Shown: positions 50,078 to 57,478 of the stretch, piece after piece
Numbering within the stretch: the first letter of the stretch is position 1
Layout: each line of letters starts with the position of its first letter
NCBI RefSeq assembly: GCF_001005315.1
Contig: NZ_LBMG01000014.1
Coordinates: 1-57,478, forward strand
Source of the DNA: Kordia jejudonensis
GTDB taxonomy: Bacteria; Bacteroidota; Bacteroidia; Flavobacteriales; Flavobacteriaceae
Direction of reading: 5' to 3'
DNA length: 57,478 nt
Program-made: the position numbers and the translations under genes
Notes under the pieces: generated by a model
Database searches by the model: none
Told to the model about the DNA's origin: nothing
Seen by the model: only the letters and a program-made list of their open reading frames with translations

Positions 50078-50140
50078 TGTGAAAAACCAACAATTTTGCA
50101 TAAATTAGAAGACCAAATAAACAACCAAAAGAAATCAGTT

Positions 50141-51172
50141 ATGAATATCTGCTTTTTAATGTATCCATGGGAAGATATAGATCCAGAAAATGATACAAGC
50201 CTCGCTTTGATAAAAGAATGTGTAAAAAGAGGGCACGGTGTCGCCACGTGTTCCCCTTCCAACTTAACGATAAGAGATAGTGTTACCAATGCATTCTGTA
50301 CAGTTATTGGAAGAATGGATAAAGTACCTTCGACATTAAAATCTTTTTATGCAAAAGCTACGTTACGTGAAGAAATGCTACCATTAGCAGGATTTGATGT
50401 CATATTTATGCGTGCAAATCCACCGCTAGATCCAATAATGTTAAATTTTCTAGATTCTGTAAAAGATGATGTTTTTATAGTAAACTCACTGCAAGGAATG
50501 CGCGAAGCCAATAATAAATTGTATACGGCTGCTTTTGGAGATGCACATAGTAATATCATTCCAAATACGCATGTATCAAAAAATAAAGATTATTTGGTGC
50601 AACAAATCAAAGAATCAAAATCTGATAAAATGATTCTGAAACCATTAAACGGATTTGGTGGTTCAGGCGTTATTTTAATAGAAAAATCAGCCATGAATAA
50701 CATTAAATCGTTACTTGATTTTTATATTACAAGTAGCGATGGTTCATCAAATTATGTCATTCTTCAAGATTATATAGAAGGAGCAGATCAAGGTGATGTT
50801 CGTATATTATTACTCAATGGAGAACCAATTGGCGCAATGCGTCGTGTACCTGGCAATGATGATCATCGATCAAATGTGAGTGCAGGAGGAAGCGTTCAAA
50901 AACATTCACTGACCAAAGATGAAAAAGCATTGTGTAAACAAATTGGTCCAAAATTGGTAAATGACGGATTGTTTTTTGTTGGAATTGATGTTATCGGCGG
51001 AAAATTAGTAGAAGTAAATGTAATGTCGCCTGGCGGAATTACATATATCAACAAAGTATACAAAGTAAAACTACAAGAAAAAGTAATTGATTTTGTAGAA
51101 AGTAAAGTATCGGACAAATTACAAGCATTTGACAGACGTGTTCGTTTGCGCAAAGCTGTTGATGACGCGTAA
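50141..51172 (+). CDS. gshB: Glutathione synthase-like ATP-grasp ligase
   Basis: The 343-residue protein begins MNICFLMYPWEDIDPENDTS, which matches the GshB N-terminal domain. The ATP-grasp core has NSLQGMREANNKLY, MILKPLNGFGGSGV, ILQDYIEGADQGDVRILLLNG and EVNVMSPGG. GshB joins glycine to gamma-glutamylcysteine. I prefer the ATG at 50141; an earlier TTG would only add a short polar lead. Its stop overlaps the next ATG by one base. No gshA is seen in the window. In this operon context another peptide-type substrate is possible. Confidence 0.88.
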   Translation: MNICFLMYPWEDIDPENDTSLALIKECVKRGHGVATCSPSNLTIRDSVTNAFCTVIGRMDKVPSTLKSFYAKATLREEMLPLAGFDVIFMRANPPLDPIMLNFLDSVKDDVFIVNSLQGMREANNKLYTAAFGDAHSNIIPNTHVSKNKDYLVQQIKESKSDKMILKPLNGFGGSGVILIEKSAMNNIKSLLDFYITSSDGSSNYVILQDYIEGADQGDVRILLLNGEPIGAMRRVPGNDDHRSNVSAGGSVQKHSLTKDEKALCKQIGPKLVNDGLFFVGIDVIGGKLVEVNVMSPGGITYINKVYKVKLQEKVIDFVESKVSDKLQAFDRRVRLRKAVDDA

Positions 51173-52002
51173 TGAACGTGCAAATTCCGAATACAATAGT
51201 AACATCAGATTGGTTGTATGAACATCTTTATGCAACCAATTTGATCGTTTTAAACGGAACCATTCCGAAAGTTGTAGGAGCTTCATTAGCTGAAACACAA
51301 CAAATTCCAAATGCACGTTTTTTTGACATTAAAAAAGTTTTCAGTGTAATGGATGCGCCTTTTCCAAATACAATGTTGGATGCAGCTACATTTACACAAA
51401 AAGCACAACAATTAGGCATCAATCAAGAGAGTAGTATTGTTGTGTATGACGAATTGGGAATTTACGCATCGGCACGCGTTTGGTATATGTTTAAAGCAAT
51501 GGGTTTTGACAATATTGCTGTTTTAGATGGCGGATTTCCCGTGTGGAAAGAAAAAGGATTTTTATGTGAAGAAAAAGTAGCGTTTAAAGGCAAAAAAGGC
51601 AATTTTGAAGCAAAATATCGTCCAAAACTATTTAGAAACTATGACGGAATGTTGCAAGAAATTCAAAATGCTTCAAGCTTAATTGTAGATGCACGATCTT
51701 CAGCACGATTTACAGGAAAAGTGCCTGAACCAAGAAAAGGCTTGCGAAGCGGACAAATTCCAACATCAAAAAATCTTCCATACACGGAATTAGTACACAA
51801 CAATCAACTAAAATCAAAAGCTGAAATCAAAGCTATTTTTGAATCTTTACAAACAAATGAAACTGAATTTGTATTTTCGTGTGGATCAGGAATTACGGCG
51901 TGTATTTTGGCGTTAGCGGCTGAATATTCAGGATATACAAACTATTCCGTATACGATGGTTCGTGGACAGAATGGGGAACTTTATACCATAAAACAACAT
52001 GA
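51172..52002 (+). CDS. sseA: 3-Mercaptopyruvate sulfurtransferase
   Basis: The 276-residue protein has two rhodanese domains. The catalytic Cys237 is in CGSGITA, the six-residue loop that marks mercaptopyruvate sulfurtransferases rather than thiosulfate:cyanide types (CRKGVTA). DGGFPVWKEKG and the closing YDGSWTEWG are conserved. It passes sulfane sulfur to thiols such as glutathione, which suits its position overlapping the gshB stop. It also overlaps the next small gene as ATGA. Confidence 0.92.
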   Translation: MNVQIPNTIVTSDWLYEHLYATNLIVLNGTIPKVVGASLAETQQIPNARFFDIKKVFSVMDAPFPNTMLDAATFTQKAQQLGINQESSIVVYDELGIYASARVWYMFKAMGFDNIAVLDGGFPVWKEKGFLCEEKVAFKGKKGNFEAKYRPKLFRNYDGMLQEIQNASSLIVDARSSARFTGKVPEPRKGLRSGQIPTSKNLPYTELVHNNQLKSKAEIKAIFESLQTNETEFVFSCGSGITACILALAAEYSGYTNYSVYDGSWTEWGTLYHKTT

Positions 52003-52418
52003 ATACATCAAACAAAACAACAATTGACGTAGCATATATTAAAGATGAACTTTTAGAAATTCTTGTTGAACTTGAAAAACTAAAAATTATTCGCAAAGGA
52101 ATTCTCAAAGATGCCGCAATCATCGGTTTTATAGGAGTTTCTGTGATACTATTTGGTTTGTATGTACACTATGCAGAATGGACAGCATATCCTGTAATTC
52201 CATTCCTAATATTTGCTGGTGGCGTATTGTTGGCAGTAGCTTTGCGACCACTGCAACGTTATAAAAAAGATTTCGAAAGAGCAGAAAAAAGATGTACTGC
52301 TTTAACAGCGAAACTCAAAAAAGAAAATCTTGGTTATAAAGCAGATGTAAACGTTTCTAGAAATGAACAAGGAGCATTTGACGTAGAGAAAAGTATCGAA
52401 ATTAACACACTTTCATGA
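51999..52418 (+). CDS. Small two-helix membrane protein, unknown function
   Basis: The 139-residue protein has a charged helical N-terminus, two membrane segments (about 42-60 and 66-82) and a C-terminal cytoplasmic tail ending DVEKSIEINTLS. The tail is related to that of the next gene product (DYDVEKQVKIFRVG), so the two are paralogues. The ATGA overlap with the sulfurtransferase gene implies coupling. No enzymatic motif is visible. It could anchor or pair with the next protein. Confidence 0.65.
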   Translation: MNTSNKTTIDVAYIKDELLEILVELEKLKIIRKGILKDAAIIGFIGVSVILFGLYVHYAEWTAYPVIPFLIFAGGVLLAVALRPLQRYKKDFERAEKRCTALTAKLKKENLGYKADVNVSRNEQGAFDVEKSIEINTLS

Positions 52419-52419
52419 T

Positions 52420-52944
52420 ATGGAAATCGACATTAAATCACATTGTACTATTTGCGACAATAGAATTTATGACTTTCAAACAGGCGCTATTTGTGGACTT
52501 ACGAATGAAGCACCCAATTTTTCACAGAAGTGTAAGTACATAAAACCTGAAAAAAAGTTAGAAGAAAAAATAGTTGAAGTGCACACCAAATTAAAGTTGG
52601 TTACCAAAACAAAAACGGATACCATCAGTCACTTTATTTTCTTTACCATACTAAATATTTTAATTGTTACCGTATATTATTTCTTGGTAACGTATGATAT
52701 GTATAACGGATACGTGCCAGGAATACGATTTGTCATTGTCGGTTCATTATGCTTGTTAGGAATTGCCATCGGACCTATACATAAATACCGAAGAGATTAT
52801 AAAATTGCCAAAAACAACAAAGAGCGTTTGGATGCACTCTTAAAAATCTATAAATTAGACTACGAAGTTTCGGTTGATATTATTAACGAAGCGCACGGCG
52901 ATTATGATGTTGAAAAACAAGTGAAAATTTTTAGAGTAGGATAG
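52420..52944 (+). CDS. Zinc-ribbon-like two-helix membrane protein
   Basis: The 174-residue protein begins with a four-Cys motif: CTIC at about residues 9-12, then AICGLT near 23 and KCKYI near 38. This Cys pattern (CxxCxxRxxDxxxGxxCxLT) is a zinc-ribbon-like element I know from many small Flavobacteriia proteins of unknown role. Two membrane segments follow (about 70-90 and 100-120), then a tail resembling that of the upstream paralogue. It follows that gene by one base. A redox or metal-linked role is only a guess. Confidence 0.68.
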   Translation: MEIDIKSHCTICDNRIYDFQTGAICGLTNEAPNFSQKCKYIKPEKKLEEKIVEVHTKLKLVTKTKTDTISHFIFFTILNILIVTVYYFLVTYDMYNGYVPGIRFVIVGSLCLLGIAIGPIHKYRRDYKIAKNNKERLDALLKIYKLDYEVSVDIINEAHGDYDVEKQVKIFRVG

Positions 52945-52974
52945 AAGTACCATATACATAACCATAAATGCCTC

Positions 52975-53802
52975 ATGAAAAAACTAACCATTCAAGAGAT
53001 TGTTACCAAAATTGAAAATGAAGAAGTATTTAGAGCAGTTTCGTCAGACTATTCTTTTACTATAAAAATTGACGCGTATGTACCGTACGCCTGCGGAGCT
53101 GTTCATGATGGACATCAGTTTAGACGTGAGCTTTGGGAGAACTGCATACATACCGAATACGAACGCTGGTTTGAAGAAGATCCTGCAACGCGAGAAATGG
53201 TAAAAACACATCCAATTATCATTGCAGGAATGGATTCACGCTTTGAATACGATCTAAATCGTGCGCCTGAAAGTGCCATTTATGAAGATGCTTGGGGGAA
53301 AAAACTCTGGCACGAACCACTTTCTGAGGAAATGAAACAAAAAAGTTTGGATAAACATGCCAATTTCTACAAAGTAGTATATGCATTAATTGCTAAATTA
53401 GAAGAAAAATTTGGTGTATGTGTCGTGTACGATATGCATTCGTACAACTGGAAACGTTGGGAACGCGAAGTGCCAACCTTTAATCTTGGAACTGGAAATG
53501 TTGACAATGAGCGTTTTGGAGAATCGATAGAATCTTGGCGAAAAATGCTTTCTATGATCGAATTGCCAAACGATATAGAATCGACCTCAAAAATTAACGA
53601 TACGTTTCAAGGAAATGGCTATTTTTTAAAATACATTACGCAGCATTTTAGCAACACTTTAGTTTTGGCAACCGAAGTAAAAAAGATATATTGCGACGAA
53701 ATTAATCAAGTCATGTTCCCCGAAGTTGTTGCGACTATTGAAAAAGAGTTGCGACGAATGTTACCAAAACATGCTACTGCATTTTATGCAAAATACAAAT
53801 AA
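52975..53802 (+). CDS. N-formylglutamate amidohydrolase-like hydrolase
   Basis: The 275-residue protein matches the HutG-type N-formylglutamate amidohydrolase family. Markers are YACGAVHDGHQFRREL, MDSRFEYDLNR, VYDMHSYNWKR and an alternating Glu/His pattern suited to a zinc amidohydrolase. Family members cleave N-formyl or N-acyl glutamate. No histidine-degradation genes are here. Its neighbours are GshB, a sulfurtransferase and a QEGLA protein, so a glutamyl or peptide amide substrate is likely. The upstream start at ATG follows the previous stop by 30 bases. Confidence 0.85.
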   Translation: MKKLTIQEIVTKIENEEVFRAVSSDYSFTIKIDAYVPYACGAVHDGHQFRRELWENCIHTEYERWFEEDPATREMVKTHPIIIAGMDSRFEYDLNRAPESAIYEDAWGKKLWHEPLSEEMKQKSLDKHANFYKVVYALIAKLEEKFGVCVVYDMHSYNWKRWEREVPTFNLGTGNVDNERFGESIESWRKMLSMIELPNDIESTSKINDTFQGNGYFLKYITQHFSNTLVLATEVKKIYCDEINQVMFPEVVATIEKELRRMLPKHATAFYAKYK

Positions 53803-53816
53803 GAAGATTTTTTAGG

Positions 53817-54974
53817 ATGAATGATATACATGTTGGAAACGAAGTGCTTTTTGAAATCGACAATAACATTGACGAACTTGTCAAAAAAGTCGAACTATTA
53901 AGCTATGTAAATCCCATAAATTTAGAAGAAGAGAAACAAAAATTCTTCCAATCAAAATATCTAGCAGAGCCAAATTTTAAATATCCTGTGATGGATTTTG
54001 ATCGTTTTCAGATGCATCGAGAGTTGATTTCACAACCGATAGAACATATTGAAAATGAATTCACTAGAGAGTTGTATGAAGATATTATTTATGCATATTC
54101 AGGCTTAATTCAATGTATTCAAACCATTGGAACCAAGCGAAAATTTTATTACAACAGTCTGCGTTCTTTTGGAACACCAACGGAGCAAGATGTTGAAAAC
54201 GCAAAGTTTATTCTGCATTTTGAAGAAGAAGACGAAAGCGAAGCTCAATTTCAGCCAAAATATTCTCCTAAAGAAACGGAAGCACTTTTTCGTGACTACT
54301 CAGCGCAATACGACTTTTCGTATCATATTAAGTTTTCCAAAGATATGAGCGCTATTGCAATGGTATTAAATAATATTAAAACATTGGTTATCAATGAAAA
54401 ACATACTTTTTCTGATAATGAAATTGCCGTATTGACCAATCATGAAATTGGTGTACATATGGTGACGACAATGAATGGACAATTGCATCCGCTTAAAATA
54501 TTTTCAAACGGATTTCCAAATTATGAAGAAACCCAAGAAGGATTGGCTGTTTTTTCAGAATATATGAGTAATAATTTAACAGTAAAACGCTTAAAAGAAT
54601 TAGCATATCGTGTAATTGCGGTAGATAGTTTGGCAAAAGGATATTCGTTTTCTACAACGTTTAGAAAATTTGTCAACACCTATGATTTAGACAAAGACAC
54701 AGCGTTTAATATTTCCGTAAGAGCGCATCGTGGTGGCGGATTCACGAAAGATTATTTATACTTATCTGGATTAAAAAAAATATATAACTATTACAAATCT
54801 GGAAAAGATATGAATGCGTTATTACGTGGAAAAATATCGTTAGATTATTTAGAAAACATCGAATCGTTGGCCAAAAATGGGTGTGCTGTTGATTCTAAAT
54901 ACATTACAGATTCTTACCGAGAAAACAAAAACACCAATAAAACTGTTGATTTTATTCTAGAGAATTTGAAGTAA
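53817..54974 (+). CDS. QEGLA-motif metallopeptidase-like protein (DUF1704 family)
   Basis: The 385-residue protein carries HEIGVH at 209-214 and the family-defining QEGLAVFSEYM from residue 240, where Glu241 may complete a zinc site. Bacterial members were named after a flavohemoglobin-modulating effect. The eukaryotic relative MATCAP removes C-terminal tyrosine from tubulin, so a carboxypeptidase activity is a fair inference. It lies 14 bases after the N-formylglutamate amidohydrolase-like gene and ends the operon. A 51-codon remnant of the same gene lies 2391 bases downstream. Confidence 0.85.
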   Translation: MNDIHVGNEVLFEIDNNIDELVKKVELLSYVNPINLEEEKQKFFQSKYLAEPNFKYPVMDFDRFQMHRELISQPIEHIENEFTRELYEDIIYAYSGLIQCIQTIGTKRKFYYNSLRSFGTPTEQDVENAKFILHFEEEDESEAQFQPKYSPKETEALFRDYSAQYDFSYHIKFSKDMSAIAMVLNNIKTLVINEKHTFSDNEIAVLTNHEIGVHMVTTMNGQLHPLKIFSNGFPNYEETQEGLAVFSEYMSNNLTVKRLKELAYRVIAVDSLAKGYSFSTTFRKFVNTYDLDKDTAFNISVRAHRGGGFTKDYLYLSGLKKIYNYYKSGKDMNALLRGKISLDYLENIESLAKNGCAVDSKYITDSYRENKNTNKTVDFILENLK

Positions 54975-55025
54975 CAATATAATCAATCTTCTTACGTAAT
55001 TAATATATGAAGATTGATTATATTG
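54975..55025. promoter_or_regulatory. Perfect 17-bp inverted repeat after the QEGLA gene
   Basis: CAATATAATCAATCTTC and GAAGATTGATTATATTG pair perfectly around a 17-base AT-rich loop containing TTACGTAA. It lacks GC-rich stem bases and a T tail, so it is a weak terminator candidate. It may be an operator or leader structure for the regulator gene 25 bases downstream. An identical copy precedes the second regulator gene. Confidence 0.6.
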
Positions 55026-55050
55026 TAAACTCTTATTTCAAAATCAGAAC

Positions 55051-56808
55051 ATGTTGCATTTCAAGCAGTATTGCTATTCCACATTTTTCAAGTTTTTTGT
55101 TATTATTATGTATTTCGTTAGTGTTTCTAATGCTTTTGCTCAGACAGATTCATTAGCTGATAAGTCGTATGATGAACTTACAAAGTTATATGTCAAATCT
55201 ATAAATACACAACCATCTCATGCGCTTGTTTACATCACCAAAGCCCACGAAGTAGCTCTAAAAGAGAAAAATAAGAAAAATATTGCCAAAACAATGTATG
55301 GAATAGCTTTTAGCAACTATACATTGGCAAATAATTCGCAAGCCTTGGAAAGTGTTGAGAAATCAATTTTACTATTTGAATCCGCAGATAAAAGAAATAA
55401 TACGTTACTTTTTCAAGCACACAATTTAAAAGGCGCTTTGCTCACAGACTTGCGACAGAATTCTAGTGCCCTAAATGCACATTTAAAAGCGAAAGCGTAT
55501 GCTAAAAAAGCGAATAACATACGAAATGAAATTCTAGCTTCAACAAATATTGCCTTCATTAAAAAAGATCACAAAGATTTTAAAGATGCCATCCGAATTT
55601 TTAAAGAAAATCTTGAAACACTTGAAAATGCAACAAAACCAATAGCTAAAAAATTGTCCTATCAACTTTTTCAATATGCTAATATTTCTGAAGCATATCT
55701 GCGAATGGGAGAAATGACTTCGGAAAATTATCTAAAAGAAGCAAAATATTACAATGAATTGGGTTTGCAGAAATGCCCTAAAGATGATATCACATCTTAT
55801 TCATATTTACTCATCAATAAAATTGTCATTCTACATGAAGAAGGAAAATACGAAGAAAGTATTGCCTTGGTTAAAAAAACGGAGCTTCTAGCAATAGATA
55901 CAAAAGATGAAAATTTATTGTGTGCAGTCTATTTTTATGCAGGGAAAAGCTATGCGAAACTCAACAAATACGAAACAGCACTTGATTTTTTAGAAAAGGC
56001 AAATGCTATTATTCTAACATCTGAAAAAAAATATCATATAGAACGATTGCTCAAAAAAGAATTGTCAATCGTATACACAGCAATTGGTAACATAGAAAAA
56101 GGGCAAGAATATTTTGAAAAGTATGTTTCGTTGGTAGAAAAAGAAACAGAGGAAGATATTAAAGTCATTAAAGAAGTATATATTAAAAATGATATTGCGG
56201 AACTTAGAGAAGAACTGAACAAACTCAGCGAACGTATGGCTTCTGAAACACTGCAAAAACAACAACTTTACGTTGTTTTGGGAATACTGATAGTTTTGTT
56301 AATTATCAGTATTTTTTGGTATCGTAACAAAGTAAAACAAGTAAAGAAACGAATAGAAAATGCATTACAAAAAGCCAACGAGTTAGAAAAAACAGGCATC
56401 CCACAAGTAGCAAATAGTTCTTCAATTTCTGAAAAAGTAACCGATGCTAAAGCTGCATTATTATTGCAGAAATTACAAAAGTTTGAAGAAGAAAAAATGT
56501 ATCTGTTACCAGATTGTAGTTTAAGTTTTGTAGCTGAACAATTAGATTCAAATACGTCTTATGTTTCCAACGTGATTAATAATTATAAAAATAAAACCTT
56601 CAAAACATACATTTCAGAATTACGAATTAACACTGCATTAGTCCAACTAAAAAATGATGAAAAATTACGTTCATATACCATAAAAGCGATTGCAGAAGAA
56701 TTCGGTTTCAAACGACAAGAAACATTCTCAAAAGCATTTAAAACGCAAACAGGAATTCATCCGTCACAGTACTTAAAAAAACTACGAAAGGATTTAGAAA
56801 CTATTTGA
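55051..56808 (+). CDS. Membrane-tethered TPR protein with AraC-type DNA-binding domain
   Basis: The 585-residue protein has an N-terminal hydrophobic signal (about 11-31), a long TPR region (about 35-360) and a coiled stretch (365-400). One membrane segment (405-423) is followed by a basic cytoplasmic linker and an AraC-type helix-turn-helix domain (about 475-580, SLSFVAEQLDSNTSYVSNVI, IKAIAEEFGFKRQETFSKAFK). The TPR part should lie in the periplasm and sense a ligand, while the DNA-binding part acts at the membrane, as in one-component hybrid regulators of Bacteroidota. The peptide gene follows directly. A second copy starts 2391 bases downstream. Confidence 0.9.
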   Translation: MLHFKQYCYSTFFKFFVIIMYFVSVSNAFAQTDSLADKSYDELTKLYVKSINTQPSHALVYITKAHEVALKEKNKKNIAKTMYGIAFSNYTLANNSQALESVEKSILLFESADKRNNTLLFQAHNLKGALLTDLRQNSSALNAHLKAKAYAKKANNIRNEILASTNIAFIKKDHKDFKDAIRIFKENLETLENATKPIAKKLSYQLFQYANISEAYLRMGEMTSENYLKEAKYYNELGLQKCPKDDITSYSYLLINKIVILHEEGKYEESIALVKKTELLAIDTKDENLLCAVYFYAGKSYAKLNKYETALDFLEKANAIILTSEKKYHIERLLKKELSIVYTAIGNIEKGQEYFEKYVSLVEKETEEDIKVIKEVYIKNDIAELREELNKLSERMASETLQKQQLYVVLGILIVLLIISIFWYRNKVKQVKKRIENALQKANELEKTGIPQVANSSSISEKVTDAKAALLLQKLQKFEEEKMYLLPDCSLSFVAEQLDSNTSYVSNVINNYKNKTFKTYISELRINTALVQLKNDEKLRSYTIKAIAEEFGFKRQETFSKAFKTQTGIHPSQYLKKLRKDLETI

Positions 56809-56835
56809 TAGTTCATAAACCATCACAGTTTAGAC

Positions 56836-56866
56836 TTTGTAAGCCTTACGTTTTCATGTTACTTTG
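56836..56866 (+). promoter_or_regulatory. Possible promoter of the peptide gene
   Basis: TTTG and TACTTTG lie 20 bases apart, close to the Bacteroidota -33/-7 layout but one base short in the -7 box. It would start transcription about 20-25 bases before the peptide ATG, so the peptide may be made independently of the regulator. Confidence 0.4.
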
Positions 56867-56893
56867 TATTTGTAACATTAAAATTTATTGAGA

Positions 56894-57160
56894 ATGAAAA
56901 AAAAGAAATTTGGGCTATTGAATTTTAAAAAGAATAAAATTTCAAATTTATATAATTTGCAAAAAACGAAAGGCGGAACTGGAACCGGCCCTGGAACTGA
57001 AGGCGGTTTATTTACAGGACTAACCAATTGTGGTGCAAGTTGTGAAGTTGGTTGTGAAACCTATGACCCTGTAAAATGCTATGATACTACAAGAACGCTA
57101 ACAGACAATACTTTTTACGAAACTTGCGATTGTGAAGGTTTTGCAAGTATGGGATGCTAA
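56894..57160 (+). CDS. Putative RiPP (lanthipeptide-like) precursor peptide
   Basis: The 88-residue peptide has a basic leader (MKKKKFGLLNFKKNKISNL) ending in a double glycine at 27-28. The predicted core has seven Cys (46, 50, 54, 62, 78, 80, 88) and many Thr/Ser. The layout matches GG-leader natural-product precursors frequent in Flavobacteriia and sometimes called class I lanthipeptides; no family match was run. A second GG at 37-38 offers another cleavage point. I used the ATG at 56894, not the TTG six bases earlier. No dehydratase, cyclase or peptidase-transporter gene is visible in this window. It sits next to a TPR/AraC regulator that might control or sense it. Antimicrobial and signalling roles are both open. 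Confidence 0.72.
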   Translation: MKKKKFGLLNFKKNKISNLYNLQKTKGGTGTGPGTEGGLFTGLTNCGASCEVGCETYDPVKCYDTTRTLTDNTFYETCDCEGFASMGC

Positions 57161-57208: not shown

Positions 57209-57365
57209 GTTATTACGCGGAAAAATTTCGTTGGATTATTTAAAAAATTTCGAATCGTTGGGCAAAAATGGGTGTGCTGTTGATTCGAAATATATTACAG
57301 ACTCTTACCGAGAAAACAAAAATACCAATAAAACTGTTGATTTTATTTTGGAGAATTTGAAGTAA
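57209..57365 (+). pseudogene. 3' remnant of the QEGLA-motif gene
   Basis: The last 51 codons of the QEGLA gene are repeated in frame with the same stop but without the rest of the gene. There are 13 base differences in 12 codons compared with the intact gene. Nine of the altered codons are synonymous; three change residues (Glu to Lys, Ile to Phe, Ala to Gly). No start or promoter is evident for the fragment. It is a by-product of the tandem duplication. Confidence 0.85.
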
Positions 57366-57416
57366 CAATATAATCAATCTTCTTACGTAATTAATATATG
57401 AAGATTGATTATATTG
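57366..57416. promoter_or_regulatory. Second copy of the 17-bp inverted repeat
   Basis: This is identical to the hairpin after the intact QEGLA gene, including its loop, even though the coding fragment just upstream has diverged. It lies 25 bases before the start of the second regulator gene. Confidence 0.6.
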
Positions 57417-57441
57417 TAAACTCTTATTTCAAAATCAGAAC

Positions 57442-57478
57442 ATGTTGCATTTCAAGCAGTATTGCTATTCCACATTTT
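57442..57478 (+). CDS. Start of a second TPR/AraC regulator gene (cut by window end)
   Basis: The ATG and first 12 codons (MLHFKQYCYSTF) are identical to the start of the first regulator gene, at the expected 2391-base offset. Only 37 bases are visible, so nothing can be said about whether the copy is intact. Confidence 0.8.
   Translation, partial: MLHFKQYCYSTF

Follow-up and report, generated by a model that had tools for sequence, protein, structure and literature searches.

A membrane-anchored regulator with tetratricopeptide repeats and an AraC domain, paired with double-glycine leader peptides in Kordia jejudonensis, as a candidate private feedback circuit

Results

The regulator and its neighbouring peptide gene

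Our analysis concerns a regulator gene and the small peptide gene that follows it near the end of a 57,478-nucleotide stretch of Kordia jejudonensis DNA (contig NZ_LBMG01000014.1; hereafter the window), which is the whole of contig C46 of the 5.36-Mb draft genome. The regulator (55051..56808, forward strand, 585 aa) was delineated from the open reading frame (ORF) list, Pfam matches, hydropathy and alignments. It comprises a predicted signal peptide (residues ~1-31), a tetratricopeptide repeat (TPR) sensor (~31-395), a transmembrane helix (near 406-424) and a helix-turn-helix (HTH) domain (HTH_18, 495-576), so that the signal peptide, TPRs, single span and AraC domain assigned in an initial annotation of this DNA are all borne out by Pfam matches and hydropathy. 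Residues 254-317 match PF13424 (TPR_12) with 41.9 bits against a cut-off of 30.1, and residues 495-576 match PF12833 (HTH_18) with 53.8 bits against a cut-off of 33.6, which places the protein in the AraC/XylS family by its domain. The hydrophobic N-terminus ends in ...SNAFA|QTD, with the cleavage site judged by eye, and hydropathy reveals a single central transmembrane-like helix that starts at residue 406. Among 110 homologues linked to a peptide gene, an N-terminal hydrophobic segment is found in 106 and a central transmembrane-like segment in 107, and lysine and arginine are richer after the helix than before it in 94. A topology read in this way, from hydropathy alone, would place the TPRs in the periplasm and the HTH in the cytoplasm, fitting the bias in flanking charge. 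The domain-family search matched no kinase or receiver family in the regulator, and a linker of only ~60-70 residues lies between the helix and the HTH.

A profile of the TPR sensor matches 215 PDB entries, including RapH, RapF and 5dbk; the RapH and RapF chains are matched at ~1e-14, and designed and eukaryotic TPRs more strongly. The same profile also matches open frames of ~1140-1160 aa in five genomes (G018, G019, G011, G017 and G145), the size of large sensor kinases.

The peptide gene (56894..57160, forward strand) encodes an 88-residue precursor with a double-glycine (GG) leader at residues 1-28, ending in ...QKTKGG, and a Cys/Thr-rich core at residues 29-88 that holds 7 Cys; the leader was recognized by a hidden Markov model with E=6.3e-6. 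The GG-leader peptide that the initial annotation had placed behind the regulator is thus present, with its start corrected: the implied start at 56888 is a TTG, and the ATG at 56894 is the better choice. An NCBIfam search at E<=1 returned no family for this peptide, which consequently falls outside the curated lanthipeptide leader models NF038153 and TIGR04149; among seven other precursors of the genome, one passed NF038153 and none TIGR04149. By eye, the motif LxLxKx5L appears in the window peptide as LNFKKNKISNL, with F at the second L, and is fitted by its duplicate as LSLKKYSISNL.

That duplicate belongs to a second copy of the pair, as had been noted initially. The last 270 bp of the window (57209..57478, forward strand) are 95% identical to 54818-55087, and this direct repeat points to a tandem duplication. 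It carries the end of a MATCAP/QEGLA family gene and the start of the second regulator, where it is interrupted by the contig end; its continuation matches the start of contig C57, which opens with the second regulator (from base 4), followed by the second peptide (1816-2079). The second copy is 67% identical to the window copy in the regulator and 47% in the peptide, and within the regulator the HTH is 86% and the TPR region 63% identical.

Pairing of regulator and peptide

Pairing of this kind recurs throughout the genome. A regulator search gave 43 matches, of which 30 are long and were taken as paralogues; 24 of these 30 have a GG-leader peptide at most 160 bp away on the same strand, compared with 10 of 297 control genes (>=150 aa, same stretches), which upholds the view of regulator and peptide as a conserved unit. 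Of the other six, three lack a nearby peptide (C161, C213 and C143:4662), two have one at a greater distance (C173 at 2.8 kb and C136 at 389 bp), and C148:15328 runs into the end of its contig. The 24 linked regulators have diverged in their TPRs (22% mean identity) and are conserved in their HTHs (52%). Scoring of 150 among 338 candidates revealed at least 150 precursor leaders genome-wide, and the analysed stretches (60 of the 64 planned) hold 209 candidate precursor ORFs, a count that depends on leader models built from this same genome. Leaders of adjacent Kordia peptides (68) are separable from those of non-adjacent precursors of the genome (63), with a leave-one-out area under the curve of 0.85.

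In a collection of named genomes, of which the best 80 of 513 loci were retained, so that counts lean to close relatives, the closest relatives of the regulators are those of Kordia; under a first leader model a peptide was linked to 41/43 regulators from Kordia and 21/42 from Aquimarina. With a second leader model and a simple rule, which detected the short GG peptides of L290 and L291 outside the leader models, linkage was found for 23/28 regulators in the genome itself, 72/104 in the named loci and 19/61 in a sample of genomes from the family (27/74 of the family loci when copies are included). When all sources are pooled, a GG peptide accompanies 114 of 193 regulators, compared with 21 of 699 other genes of the same loci; Fisher values, in which related loci count as independent, are given no weight. 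This pool was reduced from 206 to 195 by removal of copies and to 193 by leaving out two regulators without room for a peptide, and it lacks the C172 regulator; of the 114 adjacent peptides, 113 were trimmed and 110 placed. On a FastTree tree, which carried long-branch warnings, linkage changes 24 times compared with 61 times in shuffles, and at least 15 changes are forced by starred branches; pairing is thus clustered, yet has been repeatedly gained or lost. A related pair is present in K. algicida (L093), where the palindrome is perfect.

Members of the regulator family that are not linked to a peptide include tandem regulator arrays and regulators that precede other conserved genes. Two such arrays, closely spaced and followed by no peptide that a leader model recognizes, hold six regulators (L182, genome G077) and five (L190, genome G102); the latter adjoins a C39 exporter on the opposite strand. 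At nine loci from Aquimarina, Polaribacter and Tenacibaculum (L102, L105, L110, L112, L117, L118, L123, L130 and L142), similar proteins of 125-138 aa, carrying ..SNAIL.VL...C.C, stand in place of the peptide ~210-245 bp after the regulator.

A palindromic putative operator before the peptide

A palindromic putative operator, TGATAGTTCATAAACCATCA (56806..56825), overlaps the stop codon of the window regulator and is centred 78 bp upstream of the peptide ATG. It is followed on the forward strand by a putative -33 element, TTTG (56836..56839), read from the sequence and weak in the aligned profile, and by a putative -7 box, TTACTTTG (56859..56866), identified from the aligned promoter profile, whose second base departs from the Bacteroidetes consensus TAnnTTTG. 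A TAnnTTTG-like box lies at +43..+50 from the palindrome centre across 49 non-redundant promoters that were selected for a good operator. The operator thus sits upstream of the putative -33 element rather than over the -7 box, the usual position for an activator.

Across the family the palindrome has the core TTYATRAA and lies ~80 bp before the peptide ATG, with arms that vary between regulator groups. At least 10 of 12 positions are paired in 33% of the 110 pairs (2% of shuffles), and 11 in 15% (0.3% of shuffles). Among the 36 pairs with at least 10 paired positions, the centre falls at -72..-96 from the peptide ATG in 29 and elsewhere in 7; relative to the regulator stop codon, the same 29 palindromes range from about -10 to +52. 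A regulator terminator was rejected as their source because the spacing of the centre is maintained relative to the peptide ATG and not to the stop. The best palindrome is centred at -72..-96 before 74% of the adjacent peptides of the genome (n=23) and 64% of those in relatives (n=91), compared with 28% of non-adjacent precursors (n=64) and 21% of other genes (n=656). Under a stricter rule a site at -98..-70 precedes 12/23 adjacent peptides in the genome, against 1/23 in each of two shifted windows, and 19/186 non-adjacent precursors, against 1/186 and 3/186. The peptide L069, which adjoins the C172 regulator and was counted as non-adjacent, is among those 19, and its reassignment gives 13/24 and 18/185. 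An initial hairpin search on Kordia pairs had given a weak signal (18% vs 8% shuffled) and was superseded by the palindrome analysis.

Controlling for TPR distance, the distance between operator arms correlates with that between HTHs (r=0.31, p=0.002, n=54; r=0.22, p=0.004, n=39). The corresponding relation to the TPRs with the HTH fixed is weaker (r=0.14, p=0.006, n=54; r=0.07, p=0.10, n=39; r=0.09, p=0.19, n=22).

Palindromes of the same kind also lie 84-115 bp before the neighbouring non-peptide gene of four peptide-free regulators (L134, L214, L215 and L133), which suggests other targets of the regulator family. Where a peptide-free regulator has an S8 protease gene as its neighbour, the best palindrome in L218 is 14 bp before that gene, and no palindrome with 9 or more paired positions was listed for C213 and L120.

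At up to one mismatch the window operator occurs at only two places in the 5.36 Mb (56806 and C57:1729), both before the duplicate GG peptides, and for this reason the window regulator looks private to its own peptide. Three mismatches add two further places, both without a peptide, against one for a reversed control pattern. With up to three mismatches allowed, the C135-type operator is found at 12 places, against 2 for its reversed control; 8 of the 12 precede a GG precursor, at -76 to -82 in six cases and at -103 and -123 in the other two. At up to two mismatches all four places precede one. The C141/C143-type operator is found at 21 places at up to three mismatches (controls 2 and 5), one of which lies 162 bp before a family regulator. 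From the sites of these two types before remote precursors, some other regulators may drive remote precursors as well.

Maturation and export genes

The initial annotation had called for peptide export genes, and these are present. The genome has one match to PF04738 (LanB), five to PF05147 (LanC), and one strong and two weak matches to PF03412 (C39), and thus holds the LanB, LanC and exporter of a class I lanthipeptide system. Cluster C143 combines the sole LanB match with a separate LanB C-terminal protein, a LanC, the strong C39 exporter, an HlyD protein, three peptides and a family regulator. Two more strong LanC-like genes (G000:C2:6437-7513 and C160:25257-26345) lie apart from the sole LanB match.

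In some relatives the same machinery is clustered with regulator and peptide. Among 18 hub loci, chosen for containing LanB or an exporter, eight have the regulator directly after the LanB C-terminal gene (the longest ORFs overlap in four), followed by the peptide. Seven of these eight have a single peptide with 0-2 core Cys, and their stretches yielded no LanC. What follows the peptide is an S8 subtilase of ~545 aa at four of the seven loci; of the remaining three, one has a shorter S8 match, one an S9 protease, and one reaches the contig end. In two genomes with no LanB match (G110 and G144) the regulator and an S9 prolyl oligopeptidase flank a short charged GG peptide, and exporter genes adjoin. 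Across 36 family genomes, which are related and not independent, the C39 exporter is present in 14/14 with a linked pair versus 7/22 without, and LanB in 12/14 versus 3/22. ATG-only ORF calling gave no regulator at L198 and L224; genome G123 (locus L198) has a linked pair, LanB and exporter and stands outside this comparison.

By eye, the palindromes before LanB and before the peptide resemble each other within L294 and within L304, but over seven clusters the resemblance is non-significant. In L293 (10752-12983) an MvdD-type, graspetide-like pre-ATP-grasp protein and a partner lie beside the LanB/regulator/peptide cluster, with similar-looking neighbours, by eye, in L295 and L304.

Peptide cores and the TPR sensor

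Adjacent cores have a median of 52 aa and 3 Cys in the genome and of 30 aa and 1 Cys outside Kordia (n=45). In close pairs core and TPR diverge together, which common descent explains as well, and the significant relation of leader to TPR with the HTH fixed (r=0.19, 0.18 and 0.17) may likewise mean shared descent only. The core motif T[TS][RK], 1-4 residues, [DN] was noticed before it was counted and is given no weight; it occurs in 5/23 adjacent and 0/63 non-adjacent peptides of the genome, 7/45 in other Kordia and 0/45 in others.

Genes flanking the circuit

Upstream of the regulator, and outside the circuit, lies the MATCAP/QEGLA family gene (53817..54974, forward strand), the 3' end of which forms part of the duplicated segment. 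It closes a run (50096-54974), possibly one operon, that also holds a glutathione-synthetase-like ATP-grasp gene, a sulfurtransferase-like protein and two small membrane proteins (these three by eye), and a member of the N-formylglutamate amidohydrolase family.

Discussion

Our computation supports the pairing of regulator and peptide, the operator, the relation between operator and HTH, and the clustering with LanB, protease and exporter. Together the pairing, operator, HTH relation and machinery argue that the regulator very probably controls the neighbouring peptide gene. We lean, if slightly, towards a fuller reading in which the TPR-AraC regulator activates the adjacent gene for a ribosomally synthesized and post-translationally modified peptide (RiPP) and the exported peptide is its ligand, so forming a private feedback loop. 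The regulator would act as a one-component transmembrane transcription factor, with a periplasmic TPR sensor and a cytoplasmic AraC HTH, that probably binds the palindrome as a dimer ~80 bp before the peptide start codon, recognizing the TTYATRAA core and group-specific arms. With the palindrome centre ~54 bp before the predicted transcription start, binding would activate the peptide gene. The product, a predicted GG-leader RiPP precursor, would in this genome probably be modified by the sole LanB with LanC, after which the C39 exporter of the hub cluster would cleave and export it. Once exported, the peptide would return as the ligand of the TPRs, the most conjectural step of this scheme, and close a positive-feedback loop private to each pair, with some regulators perhaps driving remote precursors in addition.

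That the TPRs sense the exported peptide is, on these sequence comparisons, about an even matter; circumstantial support comes from the dedication of a regulator to each peptide, the short Cys-poor peptides outside Kordia, and the divergent TPRs beside conserved HTHs. A substantial, if lesser, possibility is that the regulator controls the peptide gene while its TPRs sense envelope damage, a competitor product or an algal cue, the peptide being a mere output such as a lanthipeptide antibiotic. The long, Cys-containing and product-like Kordia cores agree with this alternative, as do the lack of significant covariation between core and TPR, the match of the TPR profile to the ~1140 aa proteins and to peptide-free regulators, and the palindromes before the non-peptide neighbours of four of the latter. 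A private operator for each pair, as in the window, nevertheless exceeds what a general stress sensor would need; the adjacent cores outside Kordia are short, and in the two genomes without a LanB match the regulator and a short charged GG peptide stand together with an S9 protease and a C39 exporter. Improbable, in our judgement, is a regulator that represses, or a peptide that exerts negative feedback on its own synthesis as immunity or shut-off: the sign of regulation is not fixed by sequence, but the operator occupies an activator's place upstream of the putative -33 element and not on the -7 box. The presence of the operator makes it highly improbable that segmental duplications merely copied regulator and peptide together without function. 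The window pair is indeed a recent tandem duplication and linkage is clustered on the tree, but the changes forced by starred branches, the ATG-anchored operator across strongly diverged pairs and the similar sites before remote precursors all speak against such hitch-hiking.

Several results weigh against the feedback loop that we favour. Covariation between TPR and core, which the initial annotation had put forward as a check, is non-significant at every redundancy cut (Mantel test on distances; r=0.04, -0.01 and 0.01 for 106, 81 and 50 pairs), although core distance saturates early, so that this negative outcome comes from a weak test. Of the original proposal that an exported peptide is read by the TPRs to control transcription, control of the peptide gene is thus supported by pairing, operator and machinery, and binding of the peptide by the TPRs finds no support in covariation. 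The stricter rule finds no operator before 11 of the 23 adjacent peptides of the genome, only 6 of the 21 C141/C143-type places precede a GG precursor, and the arms before LanB and before the peptide match no more closely within a cluster than across clusters (p=0.14, n=7). The relation between operator and HTH with the TPR fixed is not significant at n=22 (r=0.10, p=0.13), and that between operator and TPR with the HTH fixed is significant at n=54 (r=0.14, p=0.006). Homologues lying mostly without a peptide gene had been named as grounds for abandoning the idea; this is not the case in Kordia (41/43 paired) but is so in the family sample, where 42/61 regulators, tandem arrays among them, have no peptide, and the regulator family is therefore wider than the peptide circuits.

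We tentatively entertain a broader proposal, at somewhat less than even confidence: a Gram-negative class of peptide quorum sensing in which ribosomally made GG-leader pheromones, often modified by LanB, are read periplasmically by transmembrane one-component TPR-AraC receptors, with about two dozen parallel private channels in a single Kordia cell, widespread in the Flavobacteriaceae and a candidate for the density signal of K. algicida. If so, the Bacteroidota would gain a peptide-signalling system of their own, possible control of at least 150 precursor leaders would be shown in a genome with one LanB match, and the operator code would allow regulons to be read. In K. algicida, density-dependent protease release was found to be triggered by cell-free filtrate, with no acyl-homoserine lactone detected and the factor unidentified, according to the accessible part of that report (PMC3117869); later work, in its accessible part, describes a loss of activity that does not recover in fresh medium and favours nutrient starvation instead (PMC10565126). 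The proposal makes this old question testable, and K. algicida does carry a related pair.

Comparison with known systems

The initial annotation knew of no described system of this layout, and among the open-access papers listed in our literature searches we likewise found no TPR-AraC membrane peptide receptor paired with a peptide. RiPP clusters have been described in Kordia and relatives, with a lanthipeptide among the Kordia clusters, in the accessible parts of two reports (PMC10734526, PMC7477175). In the Bacteroidales, the accessible part of a further report describes RiPP clusters with TPR-like genes in two candidates and an HTH gene in a third, for which regulation was considered (PMC10352776); TPR and HTH lie there in separate clusters, whereas here they form one membrane protein.

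Also close are the Bacteroidetes class I lanthipeptide precursors (PMC7268733; NF038153), whose LxLxKx5L leader motif is fitted by the duplicate peptide and, with one residue changed, by the window peptide, and which share the GG, the split LanB and a nearby C39 protease. The accessible part of that work does not name a TPR-AraC regulator; in our system, moreover, most precursors are encoded at a distance from the sole LanB match, and many of the peptides next to a regulator have their own palindrome. Prochlorosins, named in the same source, resemble our system in having many precursors for one synthetase (here at least 150 leaders and one LanB match), and differ in that here the enzymes are of class I and the regulators are dedicated membrane proteins.

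Nisin-type autoinducing lantibiotics likewise combine a modified peptide, LanB and LanC, an exporter, a dedicated regulator beside the precursor and possible self-induction; in place of their histidine kinase and response regulator there is here a one-piece transmembrane TPR-AraC protein, with C39/GG export and many pairs for one LanB match. The RRNPP systems (Rap, NprR, PlcR, PrgX) share a TPR receptor that adjoins a small exported peptide gene. Their receptors are cytoplasmic, whereas ours is apparently exported and membrane-anchored, as judged by the hydrophobic segments of the linked homologues, and has an AraC output and a RiPP-type GG leader. Bacteroidetes hybrid two-component systems, finally, also join periplasmic sensing to an AraC HTH in one polypeptide, whereas in the regulator described here the stretch from the transmembrane helix to the HTH matched no kinase or receiver domain and is only a linker of ~60-70 residues.
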